This document shows, in pieces, positions 16,622 through 34,164 of a DNA stretch of 64,000 nucleotides (position 1 is its first letter; each line of letters begins with the position of its first letter). The position numbers and the translations under genes are program-made. This stretch comes from Verrucomicrobiaceae bacterium (GTDB lineage Bacteria; Verrucomicrobiota; Verrucomicrobiia; Chthoniobacterales; JAATET01): the NCBI GenBank assembly GCA_027488755.1, contig JAIYAZ010000075.1:1-64000 (forward strand), written 5' to 3'. The notes beneath the pieces were generated by a model, which was not told the origin of the DNA, searched no databases, and saw only the letters and a program-made list of their open reading frames with translations.

Positions 16622-17548
16622 TCAGCGCGTCGCGTTTGGCGCCGGCGCATCCTTGTCCCGATACCAGAGGATGCCGCGCGAGCGGAGATTCGCGATGAAG
16701 GCCTTCAGGTTTTCCGCCATCGCGCGGTCCCCGATCAACGCGCCCAGCGCCCCCTTGCCGTTGCGCGCATCGCGCACCAGCCCGCGAATCTCGTCCATCG
16801 TCTTCTCGAACGACTGCGCCGCCGCCTTCGTGGCCACGAGCGTGTCCGTCGTCTTGTTGGCCGTGGTCGTGACTTGACCGACCGCCTCCCCGAGCTTCGA
16901 CATCGCCGAGGTGGCCTCGGTCACGACGCCATCGAGCTTCTTCGCCGCCGTGTCGATCTCCCCGCTCGTCGTCTTGAAGTTCTGCAGCGTCTCGTTCACC
17001 GCCTTCACGCTCTCGGGGCTCAGCACCTCCGTGTTGAGCCGCTGGACCACGGTATCAATGTTCTTCACCGCCTTGCGCACGTCTTCAAGCAGCTCGCCGC
17101 CCGATCCCGCCAGCTCGGCAATGCCTCCGGAGTCCTTCTTGCCCACGACGACGCTGCCCGGCGCGATCGGCGTGTAGCTCTCCACGTTCAGGTTCGACGG
17201 CATCGTGATGTCCACGAAGCTGTCGCCCAGCAGGCCGGAGCTGCCAATCGTGAACGCCGATCCCTCCGGAATCGAAACGCCCTCGTAAATCTTCAGGATC
17301 ACGTAGACCCCGCGCATGTTCGGCAACACAAACGGCCCCTGCTGCACCGAGCCCACCTTCGCGCCCGCCAGCAGCACATCCGCGCCGACAAACAGCCCGC
17401 TCGCGTTCGGATACTCCACGCGGATTTCGTAGAACTTCTTCAACCCGTCGCCGAAGCGGCCGAAATAAACGACCATCGCGCCGATCGCGACCAGGCCGAT
17501 CAGAATAAAAAAGCCCACCCGGGCCTGCGTCACTTTTTCCGAACTCAT
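16622..17548 (-). CDS. mlaD: MCE-domain lipid transport protein (MlaD-like)
   Basis: 308 residues. One N-terminal membrane anchor (about 10-28), then an MCE domain (EIRVEYPNASGLFVGADVLLAGAKVGSV ... GSSGLLGDSFVDI), then a long helical region (about 140-270) of Ser/Thr/Ala-rich amphipathic repeats likely to form a coiled coil. MlaD binds phospholipid in the periplasm on top of MlaE/F. It is preceded by a good ribosome binding site (AAGGAAGG) and is the last gene of the mla operon. Confidence 0.9.
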   Translation of the reverse strand: MSSEKVTQARVGFFILIGLVAIGAMVVYFGRFGDGLKKFYEIRVEYPNASGLFVGADVLLAGAKVGSVQQGPFVLPNMRGVYVILKIYEGVSIPEGSAFTIGSSGLLGDSFVDITMPSNLNVESYTPIAPGSVVVGKKDSGGIAELAGSGGELLEDVRKAVKNIDTVVQRLNTEVLSPESVKAVNETLQNFKTTSGEIDTAAKKLDGVVTEATSAMSKLGEAVGQVTTTANKTTDTLVATKAAAQSFEKTMDEIRGLVRDARNGKGALGALIGDRAMAENLKAFIANLRSRGILWYRDKDAPAPNATR

Positions 17549-17566
17549 CTTGGTTGTGTCCTTCCT

Positions 17567-18319
17567 TTAATCGGCTTCGTCCGAGCGTCCATCCACAAAA
17601 TCCCGGATCACCGGATCGCGGCTCTGCTTCAATTCCTCCACCGTCCCGTAAAAATACACCCGCCCCGCGTTCAGCAACGCCACGCGATCCGCCACGTGAT
17701 AGCAGCTCACCATGTCGTGCGTGACCACGATCGAGGTCACGTGCAACTGCCGCTGCATGCGGCGGATCAGCCGGTTGATGCTGTCCGAGACAATCGGATC
17801 CAGCCCCGCGGTCGGCTCGTCGTAAAGGATCACCTCCGGCGGCGAAACGATCGCCCGCGCCAGGGCCACGCGCTTGCGCATGCCCCCGCTCAGGTTCACC
17901 GGCATCTTGTGCTCGTGGCCCGTCATGTTCACCAGCGCGAGCGTTTCGTTCACCTTCCGCGCCACGACGGCTCCATCGCGCTCGCCCCGTTCCCGCAGCG
18001 GGAAGGCGACATTCTCGGCGACCGTCATGGAGTCAAACAGCGCGCCGTCCTGAAACACCATGCCCACCTTGCGCCGCACCGCCTCGAGCTGCCGCTCCGA
18101 GTATCCGGTGATGTCCTCCCCCTCGACCAGGATCCGGCCCGAGATCGGTTTCATCAATCCGATCAAATGCCGCAGAAACACGCTCTTGCCCCCGCCGCTG
18201 CGCCCGAGCAGCACCAGCGTCTCGCCGCGCATCACCGGCAGCGAAAAGCCGCGCAGAATCTCCTGCCCCCCGATGCGCTGCACGAGGTCACGCACGTCGA
18301 TCATGGGTTCCGCCGCCAT
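17567..18319 (-). CDS. mlaF: Mla-type ABC transporter ATPase
   Basis: 250 residues from ATG 18319; ATG 18304 is an alternative. Walker A is GRSGGGKS (39-46), the signature LSGGMRKR, and Walker B VILYDEPTAGLDP with a following VVTHDM switch. It pairs with the permease directly upstream (two bases apart) and with MlaD downstream. The complex moves phospholipid between the inner and outer membranes, retrograde in E. coli; direction here cannot be read from sequence. Confidence 0.93.
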   Translation of the reverse strand: MAAEPMIDVRDLVQRIGGQEILRGFSLPVMRGETLVLLGRSGGGKSVFLRHLIGLMKPISGRILVEGEDITGYSERQLEAVRRKVGMVFQDGALFDSMTVAENVAFPLRERGERDGAVVARKVNETLALVNMTGHEHKMPVNLSGGMRKRVALARAIVSPPEVILYDEPTAGLDPIVSDSINRLIRRMQRQLHVTSIVVTHDMVSCYHVADRVALLNAGRVYFYGTVEELKQSRDPVIRDFVDGRSDEAD

Positions 18320-18321
18320 GC

Positions 18322-19110
18322 CTACACCCCCGCGGGGAAGAAAATGTTCAGGAACATGGTGAGGAAGAAATTCGAGATGAGCACCGCCAGCGAGCAGATC
18401 ACGACGGCCTCCGTGGTCGCGCGGCCCACGCCCACCGCCCCGTCGCGCGCGTGCAGCCCCTCGCGGCAACTGATGAGGACGATGATCACGGCAAAGATAA
18501 AGCCCTTGATCACCCCCATGAAAATATCCTCCGCCTCCGTGAACTTATACATGTTCATCAGGAAATAGGACGAGCCAACCCCCAGCACCTGCGTCGCCAC
18601 GAGGTAACTCGCCAGGATGCCGAAGAAAATGCACTCGCCCACCAGCAACGGCACCGACACGAGCATCGCCAGGGCGCGCGGCACGACCAGGTAATCCACC
18701 GGATGAACCGCCAGAGCCCGCAGCGCGTCAATCTGCTGCGTGACCTTCATCGTCCCGAGCTCCGCGCTCATCGCCGCCCCCACGCGCCCCGCCACCATCA
18801 GGCCGGTCAGCACCGGCCCGAGCTCCCGGCACATTGCCACGGAGATCACCGGACCCACGGCGGACTCCATGTTCAACCGCGCGAACTGAAAAAACGTCTG
18901 CGCCGTAAACACCGCCCCCGTGAACATCCCGGTCACAATCACCACCATCTGCGAACCAAAGCCAATGTGGCTGATCTGCTGGAGCGTGAGCCCCAGGCGC
19001 ACCCGCCCGGCGAACACCGACCGCACCGTCTCGGACGCAAGCTCACCCAACTGCCCCAGATACGTGCAAAAGGCCTGAAACGCAGCCCCGAGTGCGAGCA
19101 GCAGATTCAT
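18322..19110 (-). CDS. mlaE: Mla-type ABC transporter permease
   Basis: 262 residues, about five or six hydrophobic segments, no signal peptide. The family-typical stretches are GFGSQMVVIVTGMFTGAVF, FARLNMESAVGPVISVAMCRELGPVLTGLMVAGRVGAAMSAELGTMKVTQQIDAL. It forms the membrane channel of the Mla transporter. It sits 40 bases after a small gene and two bases before mlaF, clearly one operon. Confidence 0.94.
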   Translation of the reverse strand: MNLLLALGAAFQAFCTYLGQLGELASETVRSVFAGRVRLGLTLQQISHIGFGSQMVVIVTGMFTGAVFTAQTFFQFARLNMESAVGPVISVAMCRELGPVLTGLMVAGRVGAAMSAELGTMKVTQQIDALRALAVHPVDYLVVPRALAMLVSVPLLVGECIFFGILASYLVATQVLGVGSSYFLMNMYKFTEAEDIFMGVIKGFIFAVIIVLISCREGLHARDGAVGVGRATTEAVVICSLAVLISNFFLTMFLNIFFPAGV

Positions 19111-29353: not shown

Positions 29354-30727
29354 ATGGAATCCCCTTCCCGTCTTTTCCTCCTCGGCCTTAGCCTGACCGC
29401 CCTGCTTACCGGCTGCGTAAATCCCATCGATCCCCTCGGCCGCGTCGGCAAGGGCCCGGAACCCCGCCCGGCCCCCTCGAAGGTCCACCCCACCGACAAA
29501 TTCGCCTGGGGCATTTCCACCGCCAGCTACCAATACGAAGACCCCGCCGTCAAACCCGGCGAAAAAGCCTACTTCCAGACCGACTGGGACATCCTCGTCT
29601 CGCAGAAAAAAGCCCCGGAAAAAGGCAACGCCCTCTACTCCTGGAGCGACTTCGACAAGGACGTCGCCGCCATCAAAAAACTCGGCATCACCCACTACCG
29701 CTTCAGCATCGAGTGGGCCCGCGTCGAGCCCCAGCCCGGCAAATACAACGAGGAAGCCATCCGCCGTTACGTCGAAATGGCCCGCCGCCTCAAGGCCGCC
29801 GGCATCGAACCCGTCATCTGCCTCTGGCACTTCACCTTCCCCGACTGGCTCTACGACCACAAGACCCCCGCCAAATCCAACTGGCTCCACCCCCTCGCCC
29901 GCGAACGCTGGAACGCCTACGTCGAAAAAATCGTCCGCCGCACCGCCCCCTACACGAGCTACTACGCGCCGCAAAACGAGCCTAACGGCCAGATCACCAC
30001 GGCCTACATCGTCGGCCAATGGCCCCCCGGCATGTCCCTCGCCTTCGGTCACTACTGGCAGGCCATCGACGCCAGCACCGGCATGTTCCGCGACGCCGCC
30101 GCCCGCATCAAGGCCATCAAACCCACCGCCAAGGTTATGAGCGTCGAAGCCCTTCCCTGGTGGGACCGCGGCCCGCTCGACCCCGGCGGCCTCATCTACA
30201 ACACGATGGTCCACGGCAACGTCGACCACCTCGACCGCATCTACGACGTCTGCGACATCCTCGGCGTGAACTACTACTACACCCAGGCCACCGGCCCCCT
30301 CGCCCTCCTCTCCGAGTCCTACCGCCACGGCCACAACTTCACCATGATGGGCTGGCGCGTCGACCCGAACGGCCTCTACAAGGAAGTCCGCCGCGTCGCC
30401 CGCCGTTACGGCAAACCCGTGATGATCACCGAAAACGGCATCGCCACCAAAAACGACGCCAAACGCGTCTGGTATCTCCAGAACCACCTCGCCGCCGTCG
30501 GCCGCCTCATCAACGACGGCTACGACGTCCGCGGTTACTTCCACTGGTCCCTCGCCGACAACTACGAGTGGCACTACGGCTACAAGGCCACCTTCGGCCT
30601 CTCCACCATGGACCCCGCCACCCGCGACCGCGTCTTCAAACCCAGCGCCAACCGCTACGCCGAGATCATCCGCACCCACCCGAAGGTTGAATCCCTCACT
30701 CGCATCGAACCCCAAAAGACCTACTGA
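29354..30727 (+). CDS. GH1 beta-glycosidase, predicted lipoprotein
   Basis: 457 residues from ATG 29354; a TTG two codons earlier is possible. The N-terminus is a lipoprotein signal with lipobox LTGC (Cys21), unusual for GH1 enzymes, which are mostly cytoplasmic. The (beta/alpha)8 barrel begins about residue 48 (FAWGISTASYQYE). Catalytic acid/base is Glu209 in QNEPNG and nucleophile is Glu360 in MITENGI. It probably removes beta-linked glucose or a related sugar in the periplasm or at the outer membrane, and could act with the GH16 enzyme just upstream. Confidence 0.93.
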   Translation: MESPSRLFLLGLSLTALLTGCVNPIDPLGRVGKGPEPRPAPSKVHPTDKFAWGISTASYQYEDPAVKPGEKAYFQTDWDILVSQKKAPEKGNALYSWSDFDKDVAAIKKLGITHYRFSIEWARVEPQPGKYNEEAIRRYVEMARRLKAAGIEPVICLWHFTFPDWLYDHKTPAKSNWLHPLARERWNAYVEKIVRRTAPYTSYYAPQNEPNGQITTAYIVGQWPPGMSLAFGHYWQAIDASTGMFRDAAARIKAIKPTAKVMSVEALPWWDRGPLDPGGLIYNTMVHGNVDHLDRIYDVCDILGVNYYYTQATGPLALLSESYRHGHNFTMMGWRVDPNGLYKEVRRVARRYGKPVMITENGIATKNDAKRVWYLQNHLAAVGRLINDGYDVRGYFHWSLADNYEWHYGYKATFGLSTMDPATRDRVFKPSANRYAEIIRTHPKVESLTRIEPQKTY

Positions 30728-30731
30728 CCGC

Positions 30732-31343
30732 TTGAGCACCGACCGCTGGCTTTCCTGCGCGGAATGCGGCGCCTCCTGCCAGGATCGCCCGCTCCCCCCC
30801 CGGGCGATGCTGCGCTGCCGCCGCTGCGGCATGCCCGTCCGCCGCGCCACCGGCATCCGCTCGCTCCAGCCCGCCTGGGCCCTCGCGACCACCGGCCTGT
30901 TGCTCGTCGTGCTCGCCAACATCGAGCCCGTGCTCACCTTCGACGTCGCCGGCAACACCCAGTCCAACCTCATCGTCACCGGCGTCTTCAACCTCTTCGA
31001 CCAGGGCTACTGGCCCGTCGCGAGCCTGGTATTTTTCGCCGGCATCGCCGGCCCCGCCCTCTACCTCGTGTCCGTCTGGTATGTCTCCGCCGCCTGCTCC
31101 CTCGGCCGGCGCTGGCCCGGCCTGCCCCGCGCCGCCCACGCCGCCGAAGTCCTCGAATCCTGGAACCTCGTGCCCGTCTACGCCATCGCCACCGTCGTCG
31201 CCGTCGTCAAACTCGACATGCTCGGCACCGTGAACTGGCAGCCCGGCGCCCTCTGGATCCTCGCCCTCTCCCTCTGCTCGCTGCTCACCGTCCAATTCTT
31301 CGACCGCGAGCTCGTCGAGGAACGCCTGGAGGACCTCGCATGA
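30732..31343 (+). CDS. pqiA: PqiA/LetA-like membrane protein, N-terminal half
   Basis: 203 residues if it starts at TTG 30732 (another TTG at 30687 overlaps the GH1 gene). A zinc-ribbon-like C-x2-C ... C-x2-C pair (CAEC, CRRC) precedes four hydrophobic helices with the family segments LANIEPVLTFDVAG and NLFDQGYWPVASLVFFAG. PqiA and LetA normally carry two such units in one ~420-residue chain; here each unit is a separate gene. It ends overlapping the second half as ATGA. Confidence 0.82.
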   Translation: MSTDRWLSCAECGASCQDRPLPPRAMLRCRRCGMPVRRATGIRSLQPAWALATTGLLLVVLANIEPVLTFDVAGNTQSNLIVTGVFNLFDQGYWPVASLVFFAGIAGPALYLVSVWYVSAACSLGRRWPGLPRAAHAAEVLESWNLVPVYAIATVVAVVKLDMLGTVNWQPGALWILALSLCSLLTVQFFDRELVEERLEDLA

Positions 31344-31852
31344 CCGCCGCCCCCGCCAGCGACCGTCGCCTCCAGATGGCCCAAGCCCTCGTCGTCACCG
31401 GCATCATCCTCTACGTGCCCGCCAACATCATGCCCGTCATGACCATGACCGTCGTCGGCGACGTCGAGCCGCTCACCGTCCTCGGCGGCGTGCAGGAGCT
31501 CTACGACTCCGGCCTCGCCCCCATCGCCGGCGTGGTCTTTCTCGCCAGCATCGTCGTCCCCTTCTGCAAACTCGCCGCCCTCAGCTGGCTCCTCCTCATG
31601 CACGGCCAGCCCCGGTGGCAGCGCCAGCGCGGCAACCTCCGCCGCGTCGTCCACCTCATCGGCAGCTGGTCCATGGTCGACGTCTTCCTGCTCTCGATCC
31701 TCGCCGCCGTCGGCCAGCTCGGTGCCCTCGCCAGCGTCCAGGCCGAACCCGGCGGCCTCTTCTTCGCCGCCGTGCTCGTCTGCACCCTCTTCGCCTCCGA
31801 GTGCTACCACTCCCGCCTCATCTGGGAAACCAAGCCAACGCCCGCCACATGA
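31340..31852 (+). CDS. pqiA: PqiA/LetA-like membrane protein, C-terminal half
   Basis: 170 residues, starting within the previous stop codon. It has the same four-helix unit (YVPANIMPVMTMTVVGD, YDSGLAPIAGVVFLASIVVPFCKL, GSWSMVDVFLLSILAAVGQLG) but no zinc ribbon. The paralogous repeat of the preceding gene; together they equal one full PqiA. It overlaps the MCE gene as ATGA, so all three are translationally coupled. Confidence 0.85.
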   Translation: MTAAPASDRRLQMAQALVVTGIILYVPANIMPVMTMTVVGDVEPLTVLGGVQELYDSGLAPIAGVVFLASIVVPFCKLAALSWLLLMHGQPRWQRQRGNLRRVVHLIGSWSMVDVFLLSILAAVGQLGALASVQAEPGGLFFAAVLVCTLFASECYHSRLIWETKPTPAT

Positions 31853-34164
31853 CCACCAACGCCCAACCCCCGACCGACCCCACCGACCACGGCGAGATCG
31901 CCCACCGCCCCCCCATCCGGCTTTCCTGGGCCTGGCTCTTCCCCGTCCTCGCCGCCGCCGCCACCACCTGGCTCTTCTGGTCCAACTGGAAATCCAACGG
32001 CCCCGAAATCACCGTCAGCTTCCACACCGCGCCCGGCATCCAACCCGGGAAAACCCCGCTCATCTACCGCGGCGTCCCCGCCGGCCTCGTCACCGGCGTC
32101 CACCTCGACTCCGCCCTCGACAAGGTCGTCCTCTCCGTCCGGCTCAAGGCCTTCGCCGCCGAACTCGCCCGCGAAGGCACCACCTTCTGGATCGACCAGC
32201 CCGTCGTCGGCATTGGCGAGACCTCCGGCCTCGACGCCCTCATCCAGGGCAACACCCTCCAGGCCCGCATGGGCGACGGCCCGCCCGCCCGCACCTTCAC
32301 CGGCCACGACCGCGTGCCCCTCCTCCCCGTCGAGGAACCCGCCCTCGTGCTCAAGCTCCGCGCCCCCCGCATCCCCTTCCTCGACCGCGGCTCCCCGCTC
32401 TACTACCGCGGCCTTGCCGTCGGTTTTGTTGAGGACAAACAACTCGACGAAAACGGCCCCTACCTGCGCGCCGTCATCGAAAAGGAATTCGTCCACACCG
32501 TCCGCGCCAACGCCCGCTTCTGGCCCGTCGCCGCCACCTCGCTCAAGCTCAGCCCGTCCGGCGTCAAGCTCGACACCCTCGGGCTCAAATCCATCCTCCT
32601 CGGCGGCGTCGAGTTCGACGTCTTCGGCACCCCCGGCGAACCCGCGAAGGACGAAACCGAGTTCACCCTCTTCCCCGACCAGACCTCTGCCCGCGCCACC
32701 GGCGAGCCCTTCCGCATCGCCTTCCGCGACGGCCAGGGCCTCCTCGCCGGCCAGACCGAAGTCCGCCGCCTCGGCCAGACCATCGGCTACGTCGAAACCT
32801 CCGCCCTCGACCCGGGCAGCCAGGCCGTCACCGCCACCGTGCGCCTCCAGCCCGCCTACGACCACCTGCGCACCGCCGACGCCATCTTCACCCTCGTCCG
32901 CCCGCGCATCTCGCTCGACGGCGTCACCGGCCTCGAAACCATCGTCGGCGGCCCCTACATCGACTGCGAACCCGGCACCGCCAAAACCCTTGCCGACGAC
33001 TTCCAGGGCCGCTCCCTCAGCGACGGCGAAATGCTCGCCGCCCAGGCCGAGCGCGACGGCCTCCACCTCACCCTCCAGGCCGCCACCCTGCCGCCCGTCG
33101 CCGACGGCGCCCCCGTCCTCCATCGCGGCATCCCCGTAGGCCGCGTGAAACGCAGCGTCCTCGCCGCCAACGGCACGCCGCAGCTCGACATCCTCATCCG
33201 CCGCGAATTCGCCGCCACCGTCACCCGCAACGCCCGCTTCTGGGCCCTGCCCGGCGCGAGCCTCCAGGCCGGCCCCGGCGTCTTCGACCTCAACGTCTCC
33301 GGCCTCGAAACCCTTCTGAAGGGCGGCATCGCCTTCGACGCCTTTGCCGGACCCGCCGCGCCCGCCGCCGACGGCGACACCTTCCCGCTCCTGGCCTCCG
33401 AGCCCGCCGCCCGCGCGACCTCCGCCCCGCTCCGGCTCACCTTCGACAACGGCCAGGGCCTCCTCGCCGGCCAGACCCAGCTCCGCTACCTCGGCCTGCC
33501 CGTCGGCATCGTCGAAACCGTGCGCGCCACCAACGGCCGCGTCGAAGCCACCGCCCGCCTCCAGCCCGGCTACGACTTCCTCCGCCGCGAAGGCTCCGCC
33601 TTCTCCATCGTGCGCCTCAACGTCTCGCTCAACGGCGTCACCGGCCTCGAGACCGTCGTCAGCGGCGTCTACGTCGAGTGCGTGCCCGGCGAAGGCTCCG
33701 CCCTCCGCGACCAGTTCACCGGCGTCTCCCTCGCCCGCGCGACCGCCGAGGAAGAGGAGGAAACCGGCTTCGAAATCGTCGTCACCACCGCGCAGACGAC
33801 CATCGCCGTCAACGCCCCCGTTTCCTACCGCGGCCTCGCCGTCGGCCGCGTCCTCCGCAAGGAACTCTCGCCCGACGGCCGCAGCGTCGGCCTCCGCGTC
33901 GTCATCGACGAACCCTACTCCCGCCTCATCCGCGCGAACACCCAGTTCTGGGACGCCAGCGGCGTCAAGGTCTCCCTCGGCTTCCTCTCCCTCAAGGTCC
34001 AGTCCGTCCCGCTCGACACGCTCACCACCGGCGGCATCGCCTTCGCCACGCCCGACAACGACGCCATGGGCCCCGCCGTCAAACGCGGCCACGCCTTCCC
34101 GCTCCACCCCGCCGCCCGGCGCGAATGGCTGCGCTGGGCCCCGGACTTCCCCGCGGAAAACTAG
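31849..34164 (+). CDS. pqiB: PqiB/LetB-like protein with six MCE domains
   Basis: 771 residues. One N-terminal membrane anchor (about 25-43), then six MCE repeats beginning near EITVSFHTAPGI, LVLKLRAPRIPF, FRIAFRDGQGLLAGQ, LHLTLQAATLPP, LRLTFDNGQGLLAGQ and FEIVVTTAQTTI. Each has the YRG-x-x-VG pattern. E. coli PqiB has three and LetB seven. Stacked MCE rings form a hollow tunnel or needle that carries lipids across the periplasm. With the split PqiA genes upstream it is a complete PqiAB-type unit; no PqiC lipoprotein is seen downstream. Confidence 0.9.
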   Translation: MTTNAQPPTDPTDHGEIAHRPPIRLSWAWLFPVLAAAATTWLFWSNWKSNGPEITVSFHTAPGIQPGKTPLIYRGVPAGLVTGVHLDSALDKVVLSVRLKAFAAELAREGTTFWIDQPVVGIGETSGLDALIQGNTLQARMGDGPPARTFTGHDRVPLLPVEEPALVLKLRAPRIPFLDRGSPLYYRGLAVGFVEDKQLDENGPYLRAVIEKEFVHTVRANARFWPVAATSLKLSPSGVKLDTLGLKSILLGGVEFDVFGTPGEPAKDETEFTLFPDQTSARATGEPFRIAFRDGQGLLAGQTEVRRLGQTIGYVETSALDPGSQAVTATVRLQPAYDHLRTADAIFTLVRPRISLDGVTGLETIVGGPYIDCEPGTAKTLADDFQGRSLSDGEMLAAQAERDGLHLTLQAATLPPVADGAPVLHRGIPVGRVKRSVLAANGTPQLDILIRREFAATVTRNARFWALPGASLQAGPGVFDLNVSGLETLLKGGIAFDAFAGPAAPAADGDTFPLLASEPAARATSAPLRLTFDNGQGLLAGQTQLRYLGLPVGIVETVRATNGRVEATARLQPGYDFLRREGSAFSIVRLNVSLNGVTGLETVVSGVYVECVPGEGSALRDQFTGVSLARATAEEEEETGFEIVVTTAQTTIAVNAPVSYRGLAVGRVLRKELSPDGRSVGLRVVIDEPYSRLIRANTQFWDASGVKVSLGFLSLKVQSVPLDTLTTGGIAFATPDNDAMGPAVKRGHAFPLHPAARREWLRWAPDFPAEN

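Follow-up and report, generated by a model that had tools for sequence, protein, structure and literature searches.

A probable letAB-type operon with six MCE rings and a two-gene PqiA partner in a Verrucomicrobiaceae genome

The window analysed here is a stretch of 64,000 nucleotides from a Verrucomicrobiaceae bacterium (contig JAIYAZ010000075.1, positions 1 to 64,000). The contig comprises 256,645 bases, and the genome is 3.48 Mb long and 99.77% complete. The window contains two genes of the PqiA family and a gene for a protein with tandem MCE rings, all in the same direction and joined at both junctions by a 4-base ATGA overlap. The locus raises the question of which transport system it encodes: a PqiABC system, in line with the original prediction, which had named the MCE protein PqiB from the sequence alone, or a relative of LetAB. 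The set is very probably a letAB-type operon for moving lipids between the inner and outer membrane, with a six-ring tube and a two-chain LetA.

Identity of the MCE protein

The MCE protein is a relative of LetB. It has more than three tandem MCE domains, ends just past the last ring, and lacks the helical needle that follows three MCE domains in PqiB. Its residues 407–768 align with residues 517–876 of LetB in phmmer, and the C-terminal ends match. The stretch after the last called ring comprises 7–19 residues in 11 six-ring proteins versus 181–256 in 25 PqiB-type proteins of Verrucomicrobiota. As in LetB-type loci, a PqiA-family partner lies upstream and no PqiC-family gene adjoins the locus, the genome's single PF03886 match being on another contig. 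Ten six-ring relatives resemble it, with no PF03886 match in 8 and a match on another contig in 2. The LetB-type identity follows from the architecture, the C-terminus, and the lack of PqiC, and the PqiB identity is rejected on the same points. The six MCE repeats that came with this label are retained: they are found as six Pfam stretches, and the six-ring state recurs in 10 of 20 multi-ring relatives from the same order, which exceeds coincidence. The seven-ring type IV architecture (Isom 2017, PMC5561183) is absent; having six rings instead of seven, the protein is a LetB-type relative and not type IV.

The loci compared come from 66 regions (26 + 40), fetched from the rows of a search among relatives, with PqiA-family matches in 27 of 57 genomes, and of a search of the phylum, with matches in 58 of 387. 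The choice favoured genomes with PqiA pairs and took only part of the phylum rows, so the ring-class frequencies are biased. The 56 Verrucomicrobiota loci counted below are those, including the window's own, that encode a multi-ring MCE protein.

A PqiABC system whose PqiB has gained rings is a very unlikely alternative. It is favoured by the NCBIfam PqiB model (PRK10807), which is the best NCBIfam match at 450.6 bits, under its cut-off of 525, with no LetB model reported. The missing needle and PqiC and the LetB-type C-terminus speak against it, as do genuine PqiB-type proteins in the same order: L035, L039, and L050 (genomes G022, G030, and G051), whose PqiB-type gene is complete within the fetched region, each have a PqiC-family match about 2 kb from the PqiA genes on the same contig (3/3). 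Zinc ribbons are also present in both PqiA halves at 26/26 PqiB-type loci, E. coli included, versus 0/11 six-ring loci.

Along with the PqiB model, several points weigh against a LetB-type protein. With phmmer against solved structures, the expectation value is 7.2e-104 for LetB (9n8w_B) and 1.5e-26 for PqiB (5uvn), but the domain number of LetB inflates whole-protein scores, E. coli PqiB itself reaching 279 bits on LetB; for this reason, the architecture outweighs the expectation value. The rings are six, not seven, and the unmatched LetB ring differs by method. In the phmmer register, rings 1–3 lie on LetB rings 1–3 and rings 4–6 on LetB rings 5–7, with an extra stretch of rings 1–2 on LetB rings 3–4, and the best BLAST alignment places rings 1–6 over LetB rings 2–7. 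The second zinc ribbon, present in LetA, is absent from PqiA-2. The N-terminal helix is not flagged by a hydropathy scan at a threshold of 1.6. The structure model represents the monomer only and is of moderate quality, with a mean predicted local distance difference test (pLDDT) of 68.8 and a predicted template modelling score (pTM) of 0.36, from an 11-sequence alignment.

A structure search with this monomer model lists LetAB first (9n8x_C, 7.7e-60), the engineered LetB delta-Ring6 at rank 10, and PqiB 5uvn at rank 17 (3e-22). At ranks 1–10, the LetB and delta-Ring6 chains have low template modelling scores (0.23–0.32), as expected if the ring-to-ring angles of a lone modelled chain are unreliable. 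A membrane helix is probable at about residues 27–48, where it occurs in the model (low confidence at the start) and where the protein aligns with the N-terminus of LetB.

Ring types and ring number

The LetB-type protein has rings of two types, A and B, in the order ABABAB. Odd and even rings separate on profiles built from the 11 six-ring proteins: ring 2 averages 115 bits on the ring-4 profile and 9 on that of ring 3, and ring 3 averages 103 bits on the ring-5 profile and 6 on that of ring 4. The two types also differ in a loop, measured from the conserved aromatic strand end to the next conserved position across 196 aligned rings of 58 proteins, including E. coli LetB and PqiB. It has 12–13 residues in 96/96 type A rings and 20–22 residues in 100/100 type B rings, although the classes come from profiles trained on 109 of these rings, so class is not independent of loop length. 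No loop of 14–19 residues occurs among the 196 rings, and this gap is independent of class assignment. From its place in the fold, the measured loop is probably the pore-lining loop. The third, degenerate domain of PqiB was removed before the tree and loop counts. Ring starts in Table 1 are taken from Pfam matches, and each end is set at the next ring.

Table 1. Genes and rings of the locus in window coordinates
Feature	Position	Strand	Remarks
PqiA-1 gene, 203 aa	30732..31343	+	TTG start, stop at 31343; Pfam PqiA 6e-34
PqiA-2 gene, 170 aa	31340..31852	+	ATG start; Pfam PqiA 9.7e-45
MCE protein gene, 771 aa	31849..34164	+	ATG start; six Pfam MlaD/MCE stretches in one protein
Ring 1	31999..32349	+	Type A, 13-residue putative pore loop
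Ring 2	32350..32700	+	Type B, 20-residue putative pore loop; paralogue of ring 4
Ring 3	32701..33057	+	Type A; paralogue of ring 5; first GQGLLAGQ from base 32731
Ring 4	33058..33426	+	Type B
Ring 5	33427..33783	+	Type A; second GQGLLAGQ from base 33451
Ring 6	33784..34161	+	Type B; LetB-like C-terminal tail

The 56 loci comprise 11 ABABAB, 7 ABAB, 1 ABBA, 9 AB, 3 ABABBAB, and 25 PqiB-type proteins; among the last, the third domain is uncalled in two and one call is doubled. Adjacent A rings are absent from all 58 patterns (56 loci, E. coli LetB, and PqiB). One genus, g16, has members with four rings (G027, G035, and G042) and a member with six (G020). The two-ring AB proteins lie beside PqiA pairs (L058, L059, L061, L062, L077, L078, L088, L092, and L093) and have about 310–365 residues, estimated from stop-to-stop frames, which is too short to span the periplasm alone. 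The ABBA protein (L049:3612-5201) has a last ring of type A and lies near a contig end; either rings 3 and 6 were lost or the gene is broken.

The motif GQGLLAGQ is common to repeats 3 and 5, as predicted, at residues 295 and 535, within a stretch of 29 bases that is the same at 32729 and 33449. In the ten remaining six-ring proteins, rings 3 and 5 do not have the exact motif in common, and part of the likeness is thus local to the window. Repeat identities in the window protein are 51% for rings 3/5, 41% for rings 2/4, and 40% for rings 4/6. In an order-level tree, rings 3 and 5 cluster together to the exclusion of ring 1 (99/94), and ring 1 falls with the first ring of four-ring proteins (100/98). 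The clustering of rings 2 and 4 without ring 6 is weaker (40, quick tree), ring 6 standing with the fourth ring of four-ring proteins (97). From profiles and trees, a two-ring unit appears to have been duplicated, which upholds the suggestion of the original prediction, and the unit is most likely rings 2–3, copied to 4–5.

The third ring of four-ring proteins pairs with ring 5 (93/81, with the last ring of L049 in the set). Only the quick tree pairs their second ring with ring 2 (62); the careful tree neither finds nor rejects this pairing (approximately unbiased (AU) test, 0.49). These pairings would fit the loss of rings 3–4 from a six-ring ancestor. A gain of the ring pair within the six-ring proteins is not firmly rejected by AU p values, which are 0.047 (rings 2+4) and 0.21 (rings 3+5) with L049 shut out, 0.12 and 0.14 with L049 placed with the six-ring rows, and 0.21 and 0.049 with L049 left out. 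The derivation of four-ring proteins by loss is withdrawn as a proven event, the AU p varying with the treatment of L049.

Ring pairing is a tendency and not a law. A strict law is rejected by ABBBAB in Proteus mirabilis, ABBA in L049, and the odd seven of LetB; as these patterns read, an A ring would be missing beside a B ring in each of the three. Tentatively, tunnels of the LetB and PqiB kind may consist of two fixed ring kinds whose pore loops differ in length by about 7 residues, start with A-B, have no adjacent A rings, and change in length mainly by whole two-ring units; this general rule is somewhat doubtful. If true, the tunnel would have the ring pair as its mechanical unit, the A ring serving, for example, as a gate and the B ring as a conduit. 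E. coli LetB without ring 3 or ring 6 is reportedly still functional. Rings 3 and 6 are two of the three type A rings of LetB, which fits A rings as the more dispensable kind.

Like the window locus, E. coli LetAB (YebST) has a PqiA-family partner immediately upstream, over three MCE rings, and no adjoining PqiC. LetB and the window protein have an aligned N-terminus and C-terminal tail and the same ring types, which in LetB are A at 1, 3, and 6 and B at 2, 4, 5, and 7. LetB differs in having seven rings (ABABBAB), with 29% identity over 721 aligned BLAST columns, and LetA is a single gene with a zinc ribbon ahead of each half. E. coli PqiABC also has the PqiA family and MCE rings, and rings 1–2 of PqiB are of types A and B. 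In contrast, its three MCE domains with a helical needle, and PqiC, have no counterpart in the window locus.

LetB from Proteus mirabilis (L102) has six rings and is thus a natural six-ring LetB outside this group. It differs in its pattern, ABBBAB, as if ring 3 of LetB had been lost, and in having both PqiA domains in one frame. It thus resembles, in a natural protein, a ring deletion made by engineering. The engineered LetB delta-Ring6 (PDB 7see) is a six-ring LetB of solved structure, but by the ring classes used here its order is ABABBB, with a type A ring missing. The MAM-6 and MAM-7 'adhesins' are LetB orthologues for which the available text of PMC4346855 reports six or seven MCE domains. 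They differ in being described as surface adhesins; the E. coli protein is placed in the inner membrane in the available text of Isom 2017 (PMC5561183).

The PqiA partner in two genes

PqiA-1 corresponds to the N-terminal half of the LetA/PqiA family and PqiA-2 to the C-terminal half, each with four predicted membrane helices (four hydrophobic stretches, overlapping ones merged). Both four-helix domains that mark LetA/PqiA are present but spread over two genes. PqiA-1 matches LetA chain 9n8w_A (expectation value 3.1e-18), with a match to both LetA halves, and the best match of PqiA-2 is the C half of LetA (9n8w_A 280–435). With TIGR00155, the separate halves score 76.5 and 143.1 bits and do not reach the single-chain cut-off of 260.35. 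The original prediction of two overlapping genes with one four-helix unit each agrees with these results, and its coordinates are correct. It chose the TTG start of PqiA-1 at 30732; a TTG at 30687 is equally in open frame.

The split of PqiA is real, ordinary, and already known in kind. The PqiA domains are in separate frames at 50 of the 56 multi-ring loci and in one frame at 6. At 11/11 six-ring loci, the 4-base overlap offers a codon at which the second gene could start. Among single-contig genomes of the class, the split is found in six (G141, G152, G302, G305, G321, and G365) and the fused form in one (G324, locus L078). Pairs annotated as two PqiA genes also occur in Roseivivax, Acinetobacter, and Burkholderia records. 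The split loci, the recurring start, and the annotated pairs argue against a single gene that was disrupted by a recent mutation or by a mistake in sequencing or assembly, an explanation with hardly any probability left. In its favour are the 6 fused loci, which include L037 and L041 from one genus of the same order and L078 in the single-contig genome, and a PqiA cluster of 126 frame-transition genes from 38 genera, which Antonov 2013 (PMC3711429), in the available part of its text, places under phase variation. The original prediction took a single intact PqiA in relatives as a sign of error. Such genes exist at those 6 of 56 loci but do not point to an error, the split being present in relatives of the same genus and in six single-contig genomes. 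A sequencing error as the source of the split is rejected on the 50 split loci and the single-contig genomes.

PqiA-1 contains one zinc ribbon (Cys 9, 12, 29, and 32) and no ribbon lies before PqiA-2. The expectation that only the first gene keeps zinc ribbons is thus confirmed for the position, with a single ribbon instead of several. Counting at least two CxxC pairs ahead of a PqiA half as a ribbon, and leaving the nine rows without an MCE protein uncounted, the ribbon precedes the first half only at 11/11 six-ring, 6/7 ABAB, 1/1 ABBA, and 6/9 two-ring loci. It precedes both halves at the PqiB-type loci given above and at 4/4 seven-ring loci, E. coli being included in each set. The exceptions are one ABAB locus and 2 two-ring loci with both ribbons, and 1 two-ring locus that has neither.

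Outside the 56 loci are split PqiA loci without a called multi-ring protein (L033, L038, L043, L047, and L090), single-PqiA loci (L053 and L054), and tandem PqiA loci without MCE (L094–L097). In L090 an A and a B ring are in different frames, and L033, L043, and L047 are close to a contig end. L038 has a split PqiA pair with no MCE gene called within about 5.4 kb downstream. L094, L095, L096, and L097 contain tandem PqiA-like proteins in one frame, with a weaker second domain and no MCE gene in the fetched stretch, and are perhaps another PqiA branch.

Proposed working and distribution

In the proposed letAB-type system, the MCE protein would be anchored by one N-terminal helix, and six copies would assemble into a hollow tube of six stacked MCE rings that crosses the periplasm, as homology with LetB suggests. 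Phospholipids would pass through this hexameric tube, as in LetAB, presumably between the two membranes. The two PqiA proteins may form a two-chain LetA, one four-helix half each, joined within the membrane at the tube's base, and the overlapping genes could allow the halves to be made by coupled translation. The tube would be lengthened or shortened by a ring pair, since rings 2–3 and 4–5 are probably copies of one two-ring unit. The driving force of Let transport is called unclear in the available text of a 2021 review (PMC8667587).

LetB with seven rings measures about 20 nm in the available text of PMC12612896, and by scaling from it six rings would measure about 17 nm and four rings about 11 nm. 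These lengths, and the presence of both four and six rings in genus g16, suit the alternative that ring number follows the width of the periplasm, which would be narrower with six rings and still narrower with four. This alternative is unlikely: the two-ring proteins (9 loci) could hardly span the periplasm alone, and extra partners are as likely.

The three-gene set is flanked by a GH1 glycosidase gene before it and a phosphofructokinase gene after it. No conserved neighbour can be claimed from the flanking genes of 17 four- and six-ring loci, where the largest common cluster contains an open reading frame antisense to the MCE gene and the other clusters are not sorted out. At 16622–19110 on the minus strand, the window also contains an Mla-type set of MlaE permease, ATP-binding cassette (ABC) ATPase, and single-MCE MlaD protein, so Mla-type and LetB-type systems occur on one contig. 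Three further single MCE matches are on other contigs of the genome. In a six-frame scan of its four single-ring loci, L001 is weakly A (19.7 versus 9.0 bits), L003 is weakly B (16.0 versus 6.5), and two lean to neither type. A Roseivivax plasmid (L101:3489-5951) has an 820-residue MlaD-family protein in which only a single A ring and a single B ring are called and 543 residues remain; a split PqiA and an ABC-type auxiliary lipoprotein gene lie next to it.

Multi-ring MCE proteins are found in 55 other Verrucomicrobiota genomes, seven of them single-contig, and in the window's own, with two, three, four, six, or seven rings. In their available text, Isom 2017 (PMC5561183) describes three- and seven-domain MCE proteins as specific to Proteobacteria, and Grasekamp 2023 (PMC10665443) limits multi-MCE homologues to Proteobacteria and closely related phyla. 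A count of six MCE domains is in itself already reported in the available text of PMC4346855. A Proteobacteria sample of nine of the 132 matching plasmid-collection records comprises seven AB-plus-long-tail or ABB proteins, one ABBBAB, and L106 with weak extra calls. No paper on Verrucomicrobiota LetB-type proteins was found among the matches listed, in a literature searched thinly for subscription journals, and the A/B loop difference is absent from titles and abstracts among the matches listed.

The locus and its relatives extend multi-ring lipid tunnels to a phylum for which the two surveys, in their available text, report none. The natural series of two, four, six, and seven rings, with four and six in one genus, makes it testable whether ring number determines how far a tunnel reaches across the periplasm and whether the two ring types have separate jobs.

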